NCBI RefSeq assembly: GCF_001861355.1
Contig: NZ_MASN01000051.1
Coordinates: forward strand, 1 to 32,000
Reading direction: 5' to 3'
DNA from: Natrialba sp. SSL1
GTDB lineage: Archaea > Halobacteriota > Halobacteria > Halobacteriales > Natrialbaceae
DNA length: 32,000 bases
In this document: piece by piece, positions 6,001-16,553 of the stretch
Numbering within the stretch: position 1 is the first letter of the stretch
How the letters are laid out: each line of letters opens with the position of its first letter
Notes under the pieces: generated by a model
Seen by the model: the letters and a program-made list of their open reading frames with translations, nothing else
Databases searched by the model: none
Told to the model about the DNA's origin: nothing
Position numbers and translations under genes: made by a program

Positions 6001-6240
6001 GTACGAGAGTCCCAGCTGTGACGGCGGGGTGTGTTGGGGTGGGGGTACTCGAGTCCGTTCCTGCAATGGGTCGTGTTTCACTGGGTGGTGGGTTTGTTCG
6101 CGGCTCCGTGTGGTAGGGTGTCCGTGGCTGAATGACTGGGGAGCTGTGCGGGTGGGGATTGTAGTGTAGTGTTGTGTTCTCCCGGTAGTAGCGCAGTGTG
6201 ACGCGATAGGGTCAGATTTTGTACGGACCCAAAGGGACAG
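6001..6240 (+). repeat. Direct repeat R1 (partner of 8661-8858)
   Basis: This GT-rich segment aligns base for base with 8661-8858 at a constant offset of 2660 bp through the first about 110 bases. R1 then carries about 40 bases that R2 lacks (roughly 6115-6158), and the alignment resumes through gtgtagtgttctcccggtag to a terminal acag. Similarity stops at 6240, just after a degraded palindrome (ggaccc-aa-agggac). No protein is evident in any frame. It starts 21 bp after the amidase stop. It may be a non-autonomous mobile element or a boundary duplication. Confidence 0.75.
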
Positions 6241-6299
6241 CGCACCCTCTTACTCTTGCTCGAGAGGGTGTCTTAGAGGGATTCTATCAGGGCGTACAG

Positions 6300-8660: not shown

Positions 8661-8858
8661 GTACTCGAGTCCTACGCTATGACGATAGGGTGGTGTAGGT
8701 GTGGGGGTACTCGAGTATGTTTCTGCAGTGGGTTGTGTCTCACTGGGTGGTGGGTTTGTTCGCGGCTCTGTGTGGTGGGGTTGTAGTGTAGTGTTCTCCC
8801 GGTAGTAGTGTAGTGTGACGCGATGGAACCGGATTTTGCACTGTCCCCAAGGGGACAG
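8661..8858 (+). repeat. Direct repeat R2, ending in a palindrome
   Basis: This is the second copy of the 6001-6240 repeat, in the same orientation, starting at gtac and containing gggggtactcgagt, tcactgggtggtgggtttgt and ctcccggtagtag blocks shared with R1. It lacks about 40 bases present in R1. It ends in a hairpin, ctgtcccc-aa-ggggacag (8841-8858), intact here and degraded in R1. The remainder of the 8505-8989 gap contains no gene. The AT-rich island begins about 130 bp to the right. Confidence 0.75.
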
Positions 8859-8989
8859 AGCCAAAAAATTACAGCGCCCCATCCCCACCTTCGCAGATCT
8901 CCAGTTGAAGCACACGAAACGGGGGTGGAAACTGTCAAAAGTCGTCGGGAAAGTATCATAAGTGAAAAGTCTATAGATTGAAATAGTCA

Positions 8990-9979
8990 ATGGAAGATGA
9001 ATACGATTCTGTAGCTGATCGCTTGAAGGCTAGCCAAGCTAGGGTGCATATCGATCTCACTGAAACAGCACGTGAACGGATTGCATACATAACTGCTAAT
9101 CCGCTCAACCTCACTATTGCTGACCCCCAAAATGTAGCCGCTATACCAGAAAGATTGATAGATCGCGCAGTGAGTGAAACTTATGAGGATGTGGGATTCT
9201 CTGCGATCCGAGATCATGTGCGAATAAAACCCCTCTCGTCATTACAGATCCACAGAGAAATTTTAGATTCTTGTGAATACGCTACTGTATTTGCTTATAT
9301 GGAGAACATTTTAGATTTTATTTATAGAAGCACACCACTACTTTGGTCCAATTATACTATTCCATCAAAGTCAGGCCGGAAAGAGTTCGAAAATGATCGT
9401 AAAGCAATTCAACACTTTGCGATAAAAACTGTAGATCGGATTAACAAAGTGCTGGAAACAGAGGGGATTCTTTGGGAGTTTGAGTTTGATTCTGAAGGAT
9501 TCAATTTTAGACCTATTGGGTCTGAAATGATGGTGGCCGCAGATAATCAATTCCAGTCTGTTGCAAGCGGTAAACGATGGGCAACTGTCGCCTCTCCTTA
9601 CAATGATGCATATGAACTTTATCGAAATCGAATTTATAGTAAAGAGATCCCAGAGAAACTTTACAATTCTATAGAGGAATTGGCAAGGGTAATTTGTGTT
9701 GACATGGAGGATTGGGAAGAGAATCGAGAATTAAATCTATCGAATTATTTAGATATAATGAGAGAAAAGGATATTTTTGAACCGAACCCAATTATGCGTG
9801 CTGAAATCAAGGATTTAGCGCAATCAATGGAAAAAGCCTTCCAGAAGGTAGGTGATGAAAGGCACAACAGACATCACGAGATTGACAAAGAATATTGTAC
9901 TCTAATTCTTCATCAAACATCTGCATATCTCACATACCTTATTCGTCAGTATGAGAGCCAGTACTCTGGAGAAGAATGA
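8990..9979 (+). CDS. HEPN-domain, abortive-infection-like protein
   Basis: The product is 329 aa, from a strongly AT-rich gene unlike its neighbours. The C-terminal third (about residues 205-320) is all-helical and resembles the Abi_C/HEPN arrangement: an amphipathic helix with IEELARVICVDM, a linker with LNLSNYLDIMREKDIF, another helix, then DERHNRHHEI. In that last segment Arg291 and His296 form an R-x4-H motif, the catalytic signature of HEPN ribonucleases. The N-terminal 200 residues have no motif I recognise and may sense a trigger. Known HEPN/Abi proteins cut RNA to stop phage growth; transferring that role here is inference. The start ATG 8990 follows an A/T-rich promoter region, and a T6 tract follows the stop. 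No adjacent nucleotidyltransferase (MNT) antitoxin is present. Confidence 0.65.
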   Translation: MEDEYDSVADRLKASQARVHIDLTETARERIAYITANPLNLTIADPQNVAAIPERLIDRAVSETYEDVGFSAIRDHVRIKPLSSLQIHREILDSCEYATVFAYMENILDFIYRSTPLLWSNYTIPSKSGRKEFENDRKAIQHFAIKTVDRINKVLETEGILWEFEFDSEGFNFRPIGSEMMVAADNQFQSVASGKRWATVASPYNDAYELYRNRIYSKEIPEKLYNSIEELARVICVDMEDWEENRELNLSNYLDIMREKDIFEPNPIMRAEIKDLAQSMEKAFQKVGDERHNRHHEIDKEYCTLILHQTSAYLTYLIRQYESQYSGEE

Positions 9980-9989
9980 ACTAATTCTC

Positions 9990-9995
9990 TTTTTT
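9990..9995 (+). terminator. T-tract terminator after the HEPN gene
   Basis: A run of six T residues lies 10 bp past the stop codon, preceded by a pyrimidine-rich stretch, as expected for archaeal termination. Confidence 0.45.
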
Positions 9996-10000
9996 GGATT

Positions 10001-10073
10001 TCTCCCCTGGGTTGTACGTTGACAGAATTTGCTTCCCGAATTTTCACACGAGATAACGAACCATGTGTACACA
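10001..10073 (+). repeat. Degenerate repeat copy A (partner 10903-10975)
   Basis: This segment downstream of the HEPN gene aligns without gaps with 10903-10975 downstream of the membrane-protein gene, at roughly 60-65% identity by eye. Shared words include cacacga and tcc-gaat. It lies in the 270-bp gap before the membrane-protein gene, where I see no other gene. Confidence 0.4.
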
Positions 10074-10249
10074 TTAACGACGATCGCCGCGACGAACTTG
10101 AATTGTAGGTGTTAAATTGTAGTTTGGTGTCATTGATTTGTACTATACCTTTTACTCTCGATCACTATTCTTGTTCTCTTGCTGGTGATGGATTCACAAT
10201 GAATTAAAATATAGAATTACATTTTATAGCTTGAGGGAGAAGGCGTACT

Positions 10250-10876
10250 GTGAACATTCGGCAGAGATTCCCACCTACAATATTAATTGGTTCATGTCTG
10301 ATGGGAATAATCATATTATACTTCTTTTCATTTGGACTTTCATATATTATAATTTTTGGATTACTATTGGAAATTGTTGGAGTTTTCATCTTAGCTATCC
10401 CAGATTGGCCAAGAATTTATGCGACTTTTCCAACTGGCCGCCTTGAAAGTGGGAAAAACACACTTAATGAACGGCATGGTTCTGGAATTACAAAGGGTGG
10501 CGTGGGTGAACTGCAAGAAGGTGAATCGGGGTTTAAAGAAATGATTGATTCATTGTATGAAGCAGAGGGCAATGAGTGGCAACGCGGTGAACAGGCTAAC
10601 CCAATCTCTTGGGAAGGAATTAAGCGGCTTAATATTAATACTGAGCATCCAGGAATTGATTCAAGTTGGTCGAGCCGTCATCAGGAACAGTATGCATTAC
10701 TAGAACTTCAAGATGAGGACCGTGAAACTTTGATATCAATGTGGTTTGGAACTGCTAATGCTATCTTCGAGAAAGAAATCCGATCTGGGGAAAGTCGGAT
10801 TCGTAGAGGAGGACTTCTACTGATTGGGACTGGGTTTATATTGATACTTATCGGGGAACTCCATAACGTGCTCTAA
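10250..10876 (+). CDS. Membrane protein of unknown function in the AT-rich island
   Basis: The product is 208 aa. Two hydrophobic segments lie near the N-terminus (about residues 9-29 and 31-50) and one at the C-terminus (about 186-202), with a 130-residue soluble region between. That region has a Gly/Glu-rich loop (70-95) and a helical part with EMIDSLYEAEGNEWQRGEQA. The C-terminal tail is short (GELHNVL). Both the start and the topology are uncertain: the frame begins with GTG 10250, preceded by a purine-rich gagggagaagg, and ATG 10301 would remove most of the first hydrophobic segment. Codon use is AT-rich, matching the HEPN gene 270 bp upstream, so the two were probably acquired together. 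I do not recognise a family. Membrane partners are common in abortive-infection systems, which is only context. Confidence 0.65.
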   Translation: MNIRQRFPPTILIGSCLMGIIILYFFSFGLSYIIIFGLLLEIVGVFILAIPDWPRIYATFPTGRLESGKNTLNERHGSGITKGGVGELQEGESGFKEMIDSLYEAEGNEWQRGEQANPISWEGIKRLNINTEHPGIDSSWSSRHQEQYALLELQDEDRETLISMWFGTANAIFEKEIRSGESRIRRGGLLLIGTGFILILIGELHNVL

Positions 10877-10902
10877 GTATAGTATTCCTTCTCCTCCCAA
10901 CC

Positions 10903-10975
10903 ACTCCTTGGGGTTCCACGTCAACAAAATTAGTTTCCTGAATATGCACACGAACACCGATCTGTTGTGTGCATA
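10903..10975 (+). repeat. Degenerate repeat copy B with strong hairpin
   Basis: This segment is related to 10001-10073. It contains a perfect 10-bp inverted repeat, atatgcacac (10942-10951) and gtgtgcatat (10967-10976), extendable by three more pairs past a one-base bulge to leave an 8-nt loop. The rest of the 10877-11198 gap is AT-rich and contains no gene that I can see. The hairpin could terminate the membrane-protein transcript or be a recombination end. Confidence 0.5.
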
Positions 10976-11198
10976 TTTCGAACAGTGCTGTATACTCATT
11001 GAGAGTGACGATTTTAGCCAACGTTCCTTCTGCTATAGGATTGTTTTATAATTGGAACCTTTGACATGAACCCTCAGTGTTCACGAGCGACTATTTAGCC
11101 TCTGAGAACAGGCACAGCAGATTCAGTTAATCACATCATCATAACAGCAACCAGAACAACAATCCATCAAAAATTGGACCACACGAATTGGCCCCGAA

Positions 11199-11468
11199 TT
11201 AATCTCCATTCGTTGGCCCTTCTAACTCATCGGCGTCGAGTTCACCCTCCAAGTACCTTTTTCCTTGCTCAGTGATCTGGTAATACCCTTCTTCAGGACA
11301 CGCTACGAGCCCATATCTCTGAAGTTCTCTCAACCGGTCGCTCACTGTAACGCGATGTTTGTCGATGTTCTTCGCAATTGCAGTTGGACCAAGCAGTAAC
11401 CCGGTGTCGAGAATCTCTAACACTCTGTCGTCAGTCGGATTCTGCATCCAACCTCCGGGCTTTCTCAT
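11199..11468 (-). CDS. PhiH1-repressor-like winged-helix regulator
   Basis: The product is about 89 aa from ATG 11468 (MRKPGGWMQNPTDDRVLEIL), the usual beginning of this haloarchaeal family. A winged HTH covers most of the protein: GPTAIAKNIDKHRVTVSDR, then LRELQRYGLVACPEEGYYQI, then TEQGKRYLEGELDADEL. The family is named after the repressor of halophage PhiH and is common in proviruses and integrated elements. The frame continues upstream to ATG 11540; those 24 residues are Trp/Phe/Cys-rich and look non-family, but a TATA element and palindrome sit just upstream of 11540, so either a leader of about 70 nt or the longer 113-aa protein is possible. It is transcribed away from the TnpB-like module and toward the AT-rich island, whose genes it may control. 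Confidence 0.8.
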   Translation of the reverse strand: MRKPGGWMQNPTDDRVLEILDTGLLLGPTAIAKNIDKHRVTVSDRLRELQRYGLVACPEEGYYQITEQGKRYLEGELDADELEGPTNGD

Positions 11469-11544
11469 TAGTTCGAACTCGCAGAACCAGTGCTTACATC
11501 CATCGAAATACCAGAATTTGGTTGCTATATCGAAACCCATCTAT

Positions 11545-11556
11545 TACGATATCGTA
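11545..11556. promoter_or_regulatory. 12-bp palindrome, likely autoregulatory operator
   Basis: The sequence tacgatatcgta is a perfect palindrome between the TATA element (11558-11568) and ATG 11540 of the PhiH1-repressor-like gene. A dimeric repressor bound here would cover the transcription start. Confidence 0.45.
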
Positions 11557-11557
11557 G

Positions 11558-11568
11558 CTATATTTATT
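11558..11568 (-). promoter_or_regulatory. TATA box of the PhiH1-repressor-like gene
   Basis: On the reverse strand this reads aataaatatag. It would set a transcription start near 11540, coincident with the upstream ATG of the open frame. Confidence 0.55.
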
Positions 11569-11679
11569 ACAGTGGAGTCTAGAATGATTGGCTAACGGGA
11601 GATTCCGTACGTCCAACTATTCGTTGGAAAGTGCGGCAAAACGCGAGTCGGTGGTAGTGACACCGGCCCGCAGCGGCTC

Positions 11680-11738
11680 CCGTAATCACGGTACGGAAGC
11701 CATGTTCGACAAGCATCCACGGGACCTTGAAGGTCCCG
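11680..11738 (+). other. Two hairpins upstream of the TnpB-like gene (possible IS605-type end or guide-RNA-like structure)
   Basis: A small hairpin, ccgta...tacgg (11680-11696), is followed by a strong one, cgggacctt-g-aaggtcccg (11720-11738, 9-bp arms). The forward frame just before it (about 11630-11690, ESVVVTPARSGSRNHG) resembles, from memory, C-terminal tails of haloarchaeal TnpB proteins, where right-end hairpins and omega-RNA-type transcripts are encoded. It may be the remnant right end of an older element. Confidence 0.35.
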
Positions 11739-11801
11739 ACCGACGAGACGCATCACTCGAGTACCCACCCCACTCCACCCCCTCGTCCGCGGGTGATCGT
11801 C

Positions 11802-12518
11802 ATGCCTAGGGTCGCCCCCGAGGTAACTGCCGCCGACCGCACCGCGACCGCGATCGGCGTCGACCTCGGCGAGTACAACCTCTACACCGCCTGCCCGGCC
11901 ACGATGCCGGACTGGAAGGGAGCCTACGCAATCTGTGGCGACGACCTCTGCACCCGCCTGGACGAGCTCCGCGCACAGGTCGCCCACCTGCTCGGCAGCG
12001 AGTACGACCGCGAGACGATCACCGCGTACGTCGAGCAACGCCGTGCCGCGCTTCTCGACCGCCTCGACGACGCCGCGCGAACCATCTGCGACTACGCGAG
12101 CGCGTACGACCGGCCCGTGCTGGTCACCGAGAACAGCCACTTCGAGCCCGACCTCTGGGCGTGGCTGACCGATCCCAACGCCCACCGCGGGACGGCGTGG
12201 CTCCTCCCGGCGGCGCAGCTCCGACTCCGAGCCGTCGCCGCCGCGTACGCTATCGAGGTGACGACCGTGCCGGTGTCCTACTCCTCCCAGGAGTGTCACG
12301 CCTGCGGCGTCATCGGCGAGCGCGCCCAGAGTCCCTCGTTCCGCTGCACCAACCCCGACTGTGCCGTCGGCGTCGTCTCCGCGGATCACAACGCCGCGAA
12401 GGTCCTCGCACAGCGGTACTATCCCGGCCAGCGCTGTGCCTACCGGCCGCCGAACTCGGCCACGACAGCTACGGACGACCGTCCAGCGCCTCTCGCCGAC
12501 GGTGGGTCTCCACAGTAG
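11802..12518 (+). CDS. Compact TnpB-related protein (RuvC-like plus zinc ribbon)
   Basis: The product is 238 aa from ATG 11802; the frame is open to 11727. It begins almost directly at the RuvC-I strand, IGVDLGEYNLYTA (catalytic Asp). RuvC-II is LVTENSHFEPDLWAWL (Glu), and RuvC-III is SADHNAAKVLAQR (Asp). A zinc ribbon lies between II and III: CHACG, then CTNPDC. All three acidic residues and four cysteines are present, so the nuclease core looks intact. Ordinary IS200/IS605 TnpB is about 370-430 aa with an N-terminal RNA/DNA-binding half, absent here. The similar annotation name I know is 'IS200/IS605 family accessory protein TnpB-related protein'. No TnpA gene is nearby. The gene is GC-rich, unlike the AT-rich island, and is followed in the same direction by a coiled-coil gene. 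It is either a domesticated RuvC protein or a truncated transposon gene. Confidence 0.8.
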   Translation: MPRVAPEVTAADRTATAIGVDLGEYNLYTACPATMPDWKGAYAICGDDLCTRLDELRAQVAHLLGSEYDRETITAYVEQRRAALLDRLDDAARTICDYASAYDRPVLVTENSHFEPDLWAWLTDPNAHRGTAWLLPAAQLRLRAVAAAYAIEVTTVPVSYSSQECHACGVIGERAQSPSFRCTNPDCAVGVVSADHNAAKVLAQRYYPGQRCAYRPPNSATTATDDRPAPLADGGSPQ

Positions 12519-12700
12519 AACGCCTGACCCACCGTCACCGAGTGCCGACGACCGAACTGGGCAAGCACCACCGACTCACGCCGCAATCGCTACGCGCCGA
12601 TCGACTCGGCTCCGGTTGCCCGCACGATCGTCCACGGCACGCCCGCTGTCTCGCCTCCCAACTGCTCACTGATGCCGACACCGACACACCCACGATCACT

Positions 12701-13615
12701 ATGAGCACCCACTCCGAGCACGTTACCTCCACTGACATCGCCACCGATACCGACACCTGCACCGCCACCGACACTACCACCCCGGACGAACCGACCACCC
12801 ACTCACTGGCCACCGAACTCGAGTCCCTCCGAAATCGACTCAAGACACTCGAGTCCACCCTCGAACAGAAAACCGCCCGGATCGAGCACCTCGAGCGGGA
12901 ACTCGACCGTTCCCGGACGGAAAGCGAACGCCTCGAGAACCGTATAACCGAACTCGAGGAGACGCGAGCCCTCATCGCACCGATCGAGGCACGACTGGAT
13001 GCCCACGAAAAGAAACTCACGGCGAACAAAGACCGCGTCAGCGAACTCCAGGCGCGCGAACTCGAGAAGGGTGCCCATCTGCTCGAATCCCACGTCGATC
13101 CCAGTACAATCGACGTCACCGATGGTCGCCTCGAGCGGATCACCAAGGACGACGGCGCGCAGTACGTCCGCCTGCCCGAGAGCGATGACCCACTCGAGCG
13201 CGGTGGCGACGTCGCCGTCGCCCACGGCGATCTGCTCCCGGTGCAGCAACTCGCGAGGATGGACGACGAGATGCGTCGTGCGACGACGTCTGCCCTCCCG
13301 GTCCGGCTCGCAGCGAAACTCTGGAAGGCTCGCACCGATCCGGGGGTCGGCGACAACCCGTGGAAACAGGGGTGCAAGAACGTCCGCGAGTACGTCACGG
13401 CGAGCGACATGAAACACTGGATCCGCAGGCAAGAGACGGGGATCAGCGACACGTACGCGAAAAAACTCGTCTCGCGAACGATCGACGCACTCCTCGATCT
13501 CTCGCGGAACCGGCTGGCGATCAGGCGCACCAGCCAGCGAAAGAACGGACTCGAGTACACCGAACGTCGCGTCCTGCTGCCGGCGGATGCGGCGATTCCA
13601 GGTGAGCGGCTGTGA
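12701..13615 (+). CDS. Coiled-coil protein downstream of the TnpB-like gene
   Basis: The product is 304 aa. Residues 1-35 are Thr/Asp-rich and probably disordered. Residues about 36-125 form a long coiled coil with heptads (LESLRNRLKTLESTLEQK, then IEHLERELDRSRTESERLEN). A conserved-looking C-terminal domain (about 130-300) follows, with MDDEMRRATTSALPVRLAAK, WIRRQETGISDTYAKKLVSR and a closing beta strand. This domain is basic for a haloarchaeal protein and could bind DNA as a winged helix. The start ATG 12701 is chosen over the longer open frame (from 12161), which overlaps the TnpB-like gene and reads Arg/Pro-rich. The last codons run into a 33-bp tandem repeat. I do not recognise a named family. 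Its position suggests a partner of the TnpB-like protein. Confidence 0.75.
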   Translation: MSTHSEHVTSTDIATDTDTCTATDTTTPDEPTTHSLATELESLRNRLKTLESTLEQKTARIEHLERELDRSRTESERLENRITELEETRALIAPIEARLDAHEKKLTANKDRVSELQARELEKGAHLLESHVDPSTIDVTDGRLERITKDDGAQYVRLPESDDPLERGGDVAVAHGDLLPVQQLARMDDEMRRATTSALPVRLAAKLWKARTDPGVGDNPWKQGCKNVREYVTASDMKHWIRRQETGISDTYAKKLVSRTIDALLDLSRNRLAIRRTSQRKNGLEYTERRVLLPADAAIPGERL

Positions 13616-13740
13616 TGATCGAGACGCTGCGATACCGCGTAGCTGTGATGACCGGGACACCGCGATGTCACGTGGCTGCAACGACCGAGAGGGCCCAATA
13701 ACACGTGACTGTGACGACCGGAACGGCCCGGTGACACGTG
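13609..13740 (+). repeat. Four tandem 33-bp repeats overlapping the coiled-coil gene's stop
   Basis: The units are 13609-13641, 13642-13674, 13675-13707 and 13708-13740. They share g/actgtgatgaccgg-like starts and a cacgtg end (units 2-4). Divergence increases outward, and a fifth weak unit may follow. The stop codon TGA (13613-13615) lies in unit 1. The period is a whole number of codons (11), but the frames are interrupted by stops. Confidence 0.75.
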
Positions 13741-14146
13741 GCGTCGACGGCTGAAACTGTCGACGGCCGTCACACACTGTCCTGAGAGGGATTCGACTCT
13801 CCAGACGACACAGGAATCCAGCACAATGGGGGTGTAAGCGCGTCCGGCTACTCGTGAGTCTGTCGCTCGATCGGTCGTCGACGGTCCGCACCGAGCGACG
13901 GCCTAGGTGCGGTCACTGAAGACGTCAGGTGTCTCCGGGAGCTACCAGAAAGAGGGACAGACAGCAGTGAGTGTCCGCTTGGTGTCCTTCACTGCGCCTC
14001 GTGTTCCTCACGCAGCGCTGCGTCAGTGCCTCGCTGGATGCCAGTAATACGTCAGGGCCACAGTTTCGACCATCCCGTCCTTGCACCGATGGCAAGTGTT
14101 CGAACCGGCTCCAGTACGTACTGGCTGCGTCCGGTGGCCCCGATCC
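13741..14146. other. Intergenic region without recognisable gene
   Basis: This 400-bp stretch separates the tandem repeat from the convergent multicopper oxidase gene. Short frames are present on both strands, but none has haloarchaeal composition or a motif. I see no tRNA, hairpin terminator or long T-tract. Confidence 0.5.
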
Positions 14147-16051
14147 CTAGTCGGACTCGGACGCAACCCGTGTCTCAGTTTCACCCTGTGCTTCGGACGC
14201 TGGGTCTTCTTCTGACTCCGATGCCGGCCGAACCGCGAACGGGCGCATCATATCGTAATCTTCGTGCTCGACCATGTGGCAGTGCCACATGTACGTCCCC
14301 GTCTGGTCGTTGAACACCCCTTCGTACTCCCCGAAGTGGACGAGGATGTGGACCACCTCTGCCGGATGGACCGTGATCACGTCGTTCCATCCCTGCTCGT
14401 AGGCCTTCGGGGACTCGAGTGCATCGAGATCGATCTCGTCCTCGGTCGACTGGTACTCCCCGAGTGGTTGCCGGCCGAGCAACTGGAAGTGGACGAGGTG
14501 GAGGTGCATCGGGTGGGACATATCCGTGAGATTGGCGAAACTCCAGAGTTCGGTGTCACCGACGGTCGGTTCCTCGGTCACCGGATCGTCGACCGCGAGC
14601 CCGTCCGGTTCGTCCTCCGTACCGAGGAGATGGACCATCCGCCCGTGCTCGTCTTGGTCCGCCGTGAGCGTGAGATACCGTTTCGTGTCGACGTCCTCGA
14701 GTGTAATATCGGGGACGCGAGTCAGTTCGTTCGGTAGGTTCTCTGTCGCCTCTTCTGCCCCAGCCTCGCTCGCCTCGCCCCCAGCGTCCGCACCGTCCGC
14801 AACGTCGACGAGCAGAATCTCGTGGAGCGGGACGATATCGTCGTCGGCCGAACTCTGATCGCCGCGATACAGCGCGGGCGCATCGTTGTGAAGGAGCAGC
14901 GTCTCGCCCGCGTACTCGGAGAAGTCGACGACGACGTCGGCGCGCTGTCCGGAACCAATCTCGAGTCGGTCGTCGACGGGAACCGGTTCTGCGAGCAGTC
15001 CACCGTCGTTTCCGATCTGGGCGAACGCCGGCCCCTCGTCGCCGGTCTCGCCCGTCGATTCGTCGTACTCGAGTAGCGTGAGATTGTAGTACCGACTGTT
15101 CGATCCGTTCAGGAGCCGGAACCGGTAGGACGTGGGCCCGACGGAGAGGCGCGGCCAGGCTTTGCCGTTGACGACGGACGTGTCGCCGTAGAACTCCGGG
15201 ACGATGCTCGGCTCCGGGTGGGAATCGCCGCGCCCGCTCTGTTCGTCCGCGATAGCCGTCGGATAGAACAGGGAGCCGTCGTCGCTGAAACTTCGATCCT
15301 GGAGGACGAGCGGAACCTCGTACTCGCCGCGAGGTAACTCGAGTGCGTCTTCCTCGTCGCTTCGGAGGAGGTAGAAGCCGGCGAGGCCGGCGTAGACGTT
15401 GAGTCGGGTGATGCCGAGTGCGTGGTCGTGGTACCAGAGCGTTGCGGCTGGCTGGTCGTTGACGTAGTGGTAGTCCTTCTGCTCGAATTCGGGGCCGGTC
15501 GCCGCGAAGTCGCGCGTGTACCACGCCTGCGATTTGCCGTCGCTTTCTGACTCGATGTTCCCGCCGTGGAGGTGGGTTACGGTGCGGACGCCGGGCGTTT
15601 CGTACGGGATGATATCGCTGTGGATCGTCGTGTCGACGGGCAACAGGTGCTCGTCGGGTAGCTTGTTCTGCCAGCGGACGGAGATCGGTTCGCCCTGTCG
15701 GGCCTCGATCGTCGGCCCGGGGAACTGGCCGTCGTACCCCCAGACCGTCGTTGGAGGGAGGTCGCGGTGAAGCTGGTGCTCGATTTCGCTCATCTCGATC
15801 TCGTAGTAGGGCTGGCCGTCTTTCTCGCCGGTTGGGTCAACGACGCCCGGCCGCGGGACCTCGTCTACCCAGCGCTCGAGCGCAGGCGAGGAGTGTGTCG
15901 TCACCGTGGCTGCTGGCGATGCCTCTCGTTCCGGCGTCGGTGTTTCGTCCGACATACACCCTGCGAGCGCCGAGACGCCCGCGACGCTGGTAGCGAGGAC
16001 GACCTCCCGACGAGAGAGCCCGCCGAGTGGCAGTTCTGCCTGGTCACTCAT
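14147..16051 (-). CDS. Multicopper oxidase, Tat-exported lipoprotein
   Basis: The product is 634 aa. Residues 11-32 form a Tat signal with SRREV, followed by a hydrophobic core and a lipobox LAGC (Cys32), so the mature protein is probably lipid-anchored outside the cell. All copper ligands are visible: HLH (160-162), WYHDH (208 and 210), HPMHLH (513, 516 and 518), and the T1/T3 block WHCHMVEH (590-596) with axial Met601. The layout matches CotA/bilirubin-oxidase-type laccases with three cupredoxin domains; the haloarchaeal laccase LccA of Haloferax is a relative. It oxidises phenols, bilirubin-like compounds or metals with reduction of O2 to water. An acidic, low-complexity insertion lies at residues 418-440. 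The physiological substrate is unknown. It is monocistronic on the reverse strand. Confidence 0.93.
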   Translation of the reverse strand: MSDQAELPLGGLSRREVVLATSVAGVSALAGCMSDETPTPEREASPAATVTTHSSPALERWVDEVPRPGVVDPTGEKDGQPYYEIEMSEIEHQLHRDLPPTTVWGYDGQFPGPTIEARQGEPISVRWQNKLPDEHLLPVDTTIHSDIIPYETPGVRTVTHLHGGNIESESDGKSQAWYTRDFAATGPEFEQKDYHYVNDQPAATLWYHDHALGITRLNVYAGLAGFYLLRSDEEDALELPRGEYEVPLVLQDRSFSDDGSLFYPTAIADEQSGRGDSHPEPSIVPEFYGDTSVVNGKAWPRLSVGPTSYRFRLLNGSNSRYYNLTLLEYDESTGETGDEGPAFAQIGNDGGLLAEPVPVDDRLEIGSGQRADVVVDFSEYAGETLLLHNDAPALYRGDQSSADDDIVPLHEILLVDVADGADAGGEASEAGAEEATENLPNELTRVPDITLEDVDTKRYLTLTADQDEHGRMVHLLGTEDEPDGLAVDDPVTEEPTVGDTELWSFANLTDMSHPMHLHLVHFQLLGRQPLGEYQSTEDEIDLDALESPKAYEQGWNDVITVHPAEVVHILVHFGEYEGVFNDQTGTYMWHCHMVEHEDYDMMRPFAVRPASESEEDPASEAQGETETRVASESD

Positions 16052-16301
16052 AGACAGTTGCTACTATGGAGACGTGGGAGATGCACCACCGGCCGATTCC
16101 TACGGAGTCGGAATCAGAGCAAGCAATTCCACCGTTACAGTCCTATGAGTGCCATAGACGCCGAATACTCCCGTTCATGTTCGCTCGCCGACCTGGGTCG
16201 GAGTCCCTGGCGGCCTGCCGGGATACTCCATACTCCACTTCTTTCCAAGACTGCTTTGGAAAACCAATAGACAGATGTGTCCCCGTCAGCGTACGCTTTG
16301 T

Positions 16302-16553
16302 ATGGCAGCTCAACAGGTTCCTGAGCGAGACCAGAGCCCCGACGAAACTGCACTGCTGGGGAACCCACCGATAAAGAACGCGCTCGTCGTCACTAGCCTC
16401 CTCTTCGGTTCACTACTCGTCGGCGGCTGGGCCGCACTCGAGTTCACGAACGAACTGGGCACTGCAGTCACCTGGCTCTGGATCGGCATCGGACTGTCTG
16501 TCCTTTACCTCCTCAACGATATCGCGAACACTGTGAAGGATCTCGTCAACTGA
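16302..16553 (+). CDS. Small membrane protein with two transmembrane helices
   Basis: The product is 83 aa from ATG 16302; a longer frame from 16275 exists, but its extra residues are atypical. After a hydrophilic N-terminus (AAQQVPERDQSPDETALLGN), one helix spans about residues 26-46 (NALVVTSLLFGSLLVGGWAA) and a second about 53-72 (AVTWLWIGIGLSVLYLL). The short tail is NDIANTVKDLVN. No catalytic or binding motif is visible and I do not recognise the family. It is divergent from the multicopper oxidase gene, with starts 250 bp apart, so the two could share a regulatory region. Confidence 0.7.
   Translation: MAAQQVPERDQSPDETALLGNPPIKNALVVTSLLFGSLLVGGWAALEFTNELGTAVTWLWIGIGLSVLYLLNDIANTVKDLVN

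Follow-up and report, generated by a model that had tools for sequence, protein, structure and literature searches.

The window considered here, that is, the whole stretch of DNA that was analysed, is one complete 32-kb haloarchaeal contig (32,000 nucleotides; NZ_MASN01000051.1, from Natrialba sp. SSL1). Our subjects within it are an AT-rich island, the gene called here P1 which that island carries, and the two conserved DNA elements, LEFT and RIGHT, by which the island is bracketed. The guanine-plus-cytosine (GC) content is 0.37-0.43 across positions 9,001-11,000 versus about 0.57-0.65 on either side. In order, and all in the forward orientation, there are LEFT (8841-8926), P1 (8,990-9,979; 329 amino acids, AbiJ-like), a decayed inner copy of RIGHT directly 3' of P1 (10,002-10,065), P2 (10,250-10,876; 208 amino acids, a predicted membrane protein), and then RIGHT itself (10,902-10,977). 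An earlier note, made from the sequence alone, had described positions 8990-11540 as an island much lower in GC than its surroundings. The AT-rich stretch is real and its low GC was read correctly, but its actual extent is about 8,930-10,900 (right end ~10,903), with the regulator gene that the note had placed within the island instead found in the flank.

P1 alone has no useful match in Pfam, PADLOC, or PHROGs, nor any among PDB sequences. Relatives are found in 20 of 391 haloarchaeal genomes, and in 17 of 392 in a second sample (about 5%); within its own genus this genome is alone in carrying the gene. The 20 near-full-length relatives align to P1 over its entire length, members of the family being only about 25-50% identical to one another. 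Seven of them match the NCBIfam family STM4504/CBY_0614 (NF046078; best 1.2e-5), for which the curated cut-off of 150 bits is not reached and to which nothing in this genome matches at E 1e-3. Similarly, AbiJ_NTD4 (PF18863) matches residues 20-164 of a close relative (L007) at 9.7e-5 and 23.3 bits, short of its gathering score of 34 bits and with P1 itself lacking a match, and DUF7014 is seen in the C-terminal half of one other relative (0.0096). Upon comparison of profiles, however, the haloarchaeal family aligns end-to-end with four STM4504/CBY_0614 proteins, from Zymomonas, E. coli, and Azospirillum plasmids along with one archaeal genome (hhalign probability 98.2, E 5.1e-14, 280 columns). 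The plasmid members were substituted for an E. coli K-12 member of NF046078, which was sought in the immigration control region and not found. One bacterial protein of this type bears the annotation 'Abortive infection C-terminus'. The Abi_C family (PF14355), to which the earlier note had looked, matches neither P1 nor any of the 20 relatives in Pfam, and the PADLOC check likewise came back without a match for P1. Against a single abortive-infection-family protein the P1-family profile is weak (probability 1.6), i.e., what aligns is a G-x-V-Q-x-x-G-x-x-R stretch, as a likeness to the Abi_C or AbiJ type of HEPN domain from which P1 differs in its shorter catalytic loop. A match of the P1 profile to a gasdermin-B helix was also weak, and was judged to be due to chance.

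As judged from these alignments, P1 and the bacterial STM4504/CBY_0614 proteins, which combine AbiJ-NTD4 with HEPN, are distant sisters, P1 being a novel, divergent branch of that known type. The two families share a length of about 310-330 amino acids, collinearity in both domains, a stand-alone gene, a HEPN C-terminus, and residence on mobile replicons. They differ in that P1 is 14% identical and below the family cut-off, in the spacing of the active-site motif, and in that full-length P1 relatives so far have been found only in haloarchaea. The neighbourhoods of 21 P1 relatives hold no common partner gene, and P1 therefore probably acts alone. No relatives were found in the phages and viral contigs searched, and a plasmid search returned only Haloarcula pNG500. 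On that plasmid (H. marismortui; L067, 95902-101407) the relative has as its neighbour a further protein with the annotation HEPN domain-containing, and an AbrB/PIN toxin-antitoxin pair is nearby. In Natronomonas aquatica (L046:5798-8300), an insert with a 397-amino-acid reverse open reading frame (ORF) cuts the P1 relative into two pieces, and that genome has an intact copy on another contig (L048).

An AlphaFold2 model of P1, built using 11 sequences (pLDDT 79.8), has a C-terminal bundle at residues of about 194-328, following an N-terminal AbiJ-NTD4-like domain of about 1-165. A plain Foldseek search of P1 against the PDB gave no match at E 0.001. It was upon re-alignment using VIA-align, of residues 194-328 against solved structures, that HEPN appeared, the best match having a Z of 12.9 with 125 residues aligned at 2.8 A, though a Z of less than about 13 may, among helical bundles, reflect a common arrangement. 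The top 11 rows (Z 12.9-8.0) are all HEPN domains or HEPN-containing proteins, among them sacsin, archaeal HEPN proteins, DrrA, AbiA, HEPN-MNT, and Csm6. Because all of these leading rows are HEPN, and together with the sequence link, a HEPN bundle is the predicted fold of the C-terminal third of P1, just as had been supposed of it previously.

An active-site pair of R291-x4-H296 had also been claimed for P1. Both residues are present and R291 is conserved in 18 of the 20 relatives (K in the other two), but position 296 is occupied by at least ten different residues across the family, and the partner is instead H295, found in 20 of 20. The P1 motif thus is R291-x3-H295-x3-D299 (family form G-x-D-R-K-x-R-H), with one subclade carrying R-x2-H; Y225, N226, and E229 are each present in all 20 as well. 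For active families of the HEPN superfamily the motif is R-x4-6-H, at the end of helix 3 (PMC3710099), a definition that P1 does not fit, and the bacterial sisters carry R-x5-H (RNKNAGH). The loop has therefore become shorter within the haloarchaeal clade. As the R-H spacing lies outside of R-x4-6-H, the activity of P1 is uncertain, and it might be argued that this HEPN domain is catalytically dead, or instead RNA-binding, its loop no longer able to cleave, particularly given that the bacterial sisters have retained the longer spacing. We consider that unlikely, since among proteins as divergent as these H295 never varies and R291 hardly does, as would be expected of an active site, and ribonuclease activity, judged from conservation, is likely.

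LEFT and RIGHT were first recognized, in comparisons among congeners, as short conserved edges of the island. LEFT (85 base pairs [bp]; an 80.9-bit hidden Markov model [HMM] match, with copies seen family-wide) begins with the hairpin TGTCCCC-AA-GGGGACA (8842-8857), which is followed by GC-CAAAAAATTACA and CTCCAGTTGAAGCACACGAAACGGGGGT. Its stem covaries, that is, three pairs are changed on both sides, 94.4% of cells are paired, and 0 of 500 shuffles reach the score. RIGHT (a 66.7-bit HMM match) has the form GGGGTTCCACGTCAACAAAATTAGTTTCCTGAATATGCACACGA-loop-GTGTGCATAT and closes with the palindrome ATATGCACAC...GTGTGCATAT, giving rise to a hairpin at 10942-10977 (fold z -4.4) whose stem displays a compensatory change at one pair among 11 sequences. 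The decayed inner copy is recognizable still (35.8-bit HMM match; local alignment above 99% null), with its hairpin lost and no stable fold. IS200/IS605-type ends were considered and rejected, because the hairpins are of different sequence and the bracket does not include the TnpB-like gene found at this locus; a likeness of GTTGAAGC to CRISPR repeats was rejected as too short.

What LEFT might be is indicated by its distance from a gene found upstream of it elsewhere. Catalysis by Rep-Arvir, which initiates rolling-circle replication in pleolipovirus SNJ2, resides in the domain DUF7845. The SNJ2 origin includes a hairpin located 176-197 nucleotides downstream of rep, and replication was lost when either its stem or its loop was disrupted (PMC13107129). 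Of the 23 measured loci possessing an upstream rep, 20 have the start of LEFT 179-182 nucleotides beyond the stop of Rep-Arvir. In three betapleolipoviruses TGTGGCTAAGGCCACA, the hairpin on which replication of SNJ2 depended, and then an A-rich stretch are found 173-182 nucleotides after the rep stop, which is the same plan as TGTCCCCAAGGGGACA and then CAAAAAATTACA in LEFT, i.e., a hairpin of TGT...AAGG..ACA followed by A-rich sequence. Given the same distance from rep, the same hairpin plan in viruses, and the covariation of the stem, LEFT very probably is a Rep-Arvir-type rolling-circle replication origin. It differs from the SNJ2 and betapleolipovirus origins in having a stem of TGTCCCC versus the viral TGTGGC, in the absence of rep beside the copy in the window, and in being followed by cargo and RIGHT, of which the main text of PMC13107129 gives no description (the words 'hotspot', 'cargo', and 'defense' are absent from it). 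No exact LEFT or RIGHT pattern occurs in the viral contigs searched, nor LEFT in the phage records searched, and the bracket itself therefore is absent from those sequenced viruses.

The same bracket recurs widely. Among 80 related genomes searched, matches were found in 39, of 25 genera (69 to LEFT and 71 to RIGHT), making up 42 LEFT-RIGHT pairs in 24 genomes. In every pair the two share a strand, LEFT precedes RIGHT, and 48-4,610 bp separate them, and no other arrangement of the two within 15 kb was seen among those genomes. HMM scans of fetched loci yielded 51 slots, as these bracketed intervals can be called; since those loci were picked for their matches, it is the 42 pairs which serve as the unbiased count. 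The genes within slots, i.e., their cargo, are non-homologous from slot to slot and are turned over: 16 of the 112 cargo genes, versus 206 of 322 flank genes, recur as homologues in a different slot, and cargo GC is mostly 0.36-0.50 versus 0.45-0.68 in flanks. Three slots are nearly empty, at 45-197 bp. Among 93 cargo proteins scanned for families, matches include the RT_UG21 defence reverse transcriptase (1.8e-175), PD-T7-4 (4.7e-73), type II methylases, mad2, and PDC-M19A, with domain matches to the Mrr restriction endonuclease (Mrr_cat), ParB, SocA/Panacea, an AbiEii-like AAA, and DUF4145. Many others belong to no known family.

Two observations on individual cargo can be added. A small protein (56-73 amino acids, MRHPQDDLLIVYALxxLAxE...) is found beside LEFT or within the slot at L120:830-997 and in nine other places, and is the only clearly recurrent cargo-like gene. 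The slot at L118:2637-6182 holds a ParB-like gene, a methylase-like gene (SPPY), and two uncharacterised genes, which together look like an undescribed modification-based defence locus.

Slots occur in two host contexts, one with DUF7845 upstream and DUF7692 downstream (24 slots) and the other, that of the window, with a PhiH1-type regulator downstream, often along with a TnpB-like gene (13 slots). These contexts bear on how cargo comes to be exchanged. LEFT and RIGHT may simply be the origin and regulatory palindrome of a family of elements, with ordinary recombination, whether homologous or illegitimate, changing the cargo at a spot that tolerates it, and to this we assign about an even chance. 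The same host genes are present on both sides of 24 of the 51 slots, as for a fixed hotspot, and no integrase was recognised among the slot genes read, no dedicated search for integron integrases having been made. Set against this, cargo in the second, unrelated context is bracketed by LEFT and RIGHT just as in the first, and two loci, the window and L184, hold an extra RIGHT after an inner cassette. A more elaborate possibility, which we regard as rather doubtful, is that LEFT-cargo-RIGHT is a rolling-circle cassette-capture system, in which Rep-Arvir, of the same element or in trans, would nick LEFT and stop at RIGHT as terminator or acceptor. Single defence genes then would be acquired, stacked, and carried between plasmids and proviruses in the way that IS91/ISCR elements or integrons carry resistance genes, and P1 would be one such cassette, of the AbiJ type and with its HEPN active site shortened. 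The likeness to an integron cassette array lies in a fixed site followed by gene-plus-hairpin units, at times in tandem; the differences are that the slot hairpin is fixed in sequence and that many loci have single cassettes. The defence hotspots of P2/P4-like elements (PMC9122126) are similar in being small, variable slots in mobile elements that are filled with anti-viral genes. The slot here, by contrast, is archaeal, and the conserved DNA elements at its two ends are found again in unrelated contexts. No description of the LEFT/RIGHT bracket was found in the literature searched, which is not proof of its being unreported.

The tandem copies of RIGHT fit with gene-plus-RIGHT units having been added one by one, which accounts for P1 and P2 not travelling as a pair. 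The earlier note had taken the two forward genes, correctly placed 270 bp apart, as one system, and a more inclusive version of that idea is that P1, P2, and the repressor form a single regulated system. P1 and P2 do share a strand and a similar base composition. Nevertheless, of the 391 genomes (20 with P1 relatives, 12 with P2 relatives) only this one has both, the 270-bp gap contains the decayed RIGHT copy, and the best P2 relative, in another genome (L024), has its own RIGHT element 45 nucleotides after the match. As they are never together elsewhere and have a RIGHT element between them, P1 and P2 appear to be separate cassettes. P2, whose membrane helices are predicted by eye, has no Pfam, PADLOC, or PHROG match.

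As for the repressor, this is a 113-amino-acid winged-helix regulator (11,199-11,540, reverse strand), PhiH1-repressor-like as had been proposed (phrog_2440, 'transcriptional regulator', 8.5e-32). Three congeners, which have other genes where P1 and P2 stand in the window, show 86-88% identity in the DNA from 10,903 to 14,776, or more broadly to about 14,000-16,500, a stretch that takes in the regulator. For the regulator's own DNA the identity is 93-94% in two of the congeners lacking P1 and P2, the third having a diverged copy, and a regulator is found 3' of the slot in 13 loci. Because its DNA persists where P1 and P2 are lacking, the regulator is conserved flank rather than part of the island, and a single system of all three genes is highly improbable. 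Our proposal instead is that P2 occupies this slot as a further cassette, independent of P1, with the repressor as a fixed neighbour.

Beyond the regulator lies a short TnpB-like ORF (11727-12518, forward strand; TNB zinc ribbon, PF07282, 3.6e-9), also conserved flank, with 95% DNA identity in the three congeners. It retains apparent RuvC residues and the zinc ribbon, its N-terminal half is gone, and it possibly is a repurposed TnpB derivative; such an ORF adjoins the PhiH1-type regulator also in several of L088-L090, L115, L119, L120, L125, and L179. To the other side, the intergenic stretches 6001-6243 and 8661-8861 are 82-84% alike, with copies recurring genus-wide, and this similarity suggests earlier slot duplications on the same replicon.

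The explanation that we favour, and which we hold to be somewhat more probable than its negation, is that P1 is a single-gene, AbiJ-type defence protein, present as exchangeable cargo in a slot between a Rep-Arvir-type origin (LEFT) and a palindrome (RIGHT). It draws together the distant homology, the predicted HEPN fold, the conservation of R291 and H295, the recurrence of the bracket, the turnover of cargo, and the match of LEFT to viral origins. AbiJ-NTD4 has CBY_0614 as its type protein, and such N-terminal domains have been proposed to sense phage and to restrain the HEPN toxin (PMC3710099). By that scheme the N-terminal domain of P1 would sense infection and hold back the HEPN ribonuclease, infection would release it, and the resulting RNA cleavage would stop the cell prior to viral spread. 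Movement of cargo into and out of the slot may be effected by Rep or by recombination.

A number of points weigh against this explanation. P1 itself matches no defence model and its nearest curated family's cut-off is unreached, its R-H spacing (3, or 2) is outside of that defined for active families, and P1 relatives elsewhere are outside of LEFT/RIGHT brackets, the slot therefore not being the usual home of the P1 family. The defence content of cargo rests on named matches rather than on a test of enrichment versus flank genes, slots with a common host context are not independent, and there is no DUF7845 match in the window nor in the other regulator-context loci; two Rep-Arvir loci are present elsewhere in the same genome (L121, L122). 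Of the earlier claim of a candidate defence locus, what stands is that this is variable DNA in a slot which elsewhere holds known defence genes. P1 might alternatively be a toxin of addiction or competition, one that stabilises or protects its carrier element rather than serving the host as an antiviral system. Its position in an element-borne slot, beside a hairpin resembling a replication origin, would suit such a role, and toxin-antitoxin roles have been suggested for toxin genes of the SNJ2 replication module (PMC13107129). With no antitoxin partner recurring beside P1 relatives, however, and with stand-alone antiviral genes (RT_UG21, PD-T7-4) occupying other slots, we view this as a minority possibility.

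To our knowledge, few stand-alone abortive-infection proteins have been described in archaea. The P1 family brings the AbiJ-NTD4/HEPN type to the haloarchaea, and does so with an altered active-site spacing. The bracket nonetheless is of greater importance than P1, as a signature consisting of an 85-bp origin-like hairpin along with a palindrome allows defence cargo to be located without knowledge of the genes involved, with about 50 slots now listed, many of them holding proteins of no known family. It also ties a newly described archaeal replication initiator, Rep-Arvir, to the traffic in defence genes.

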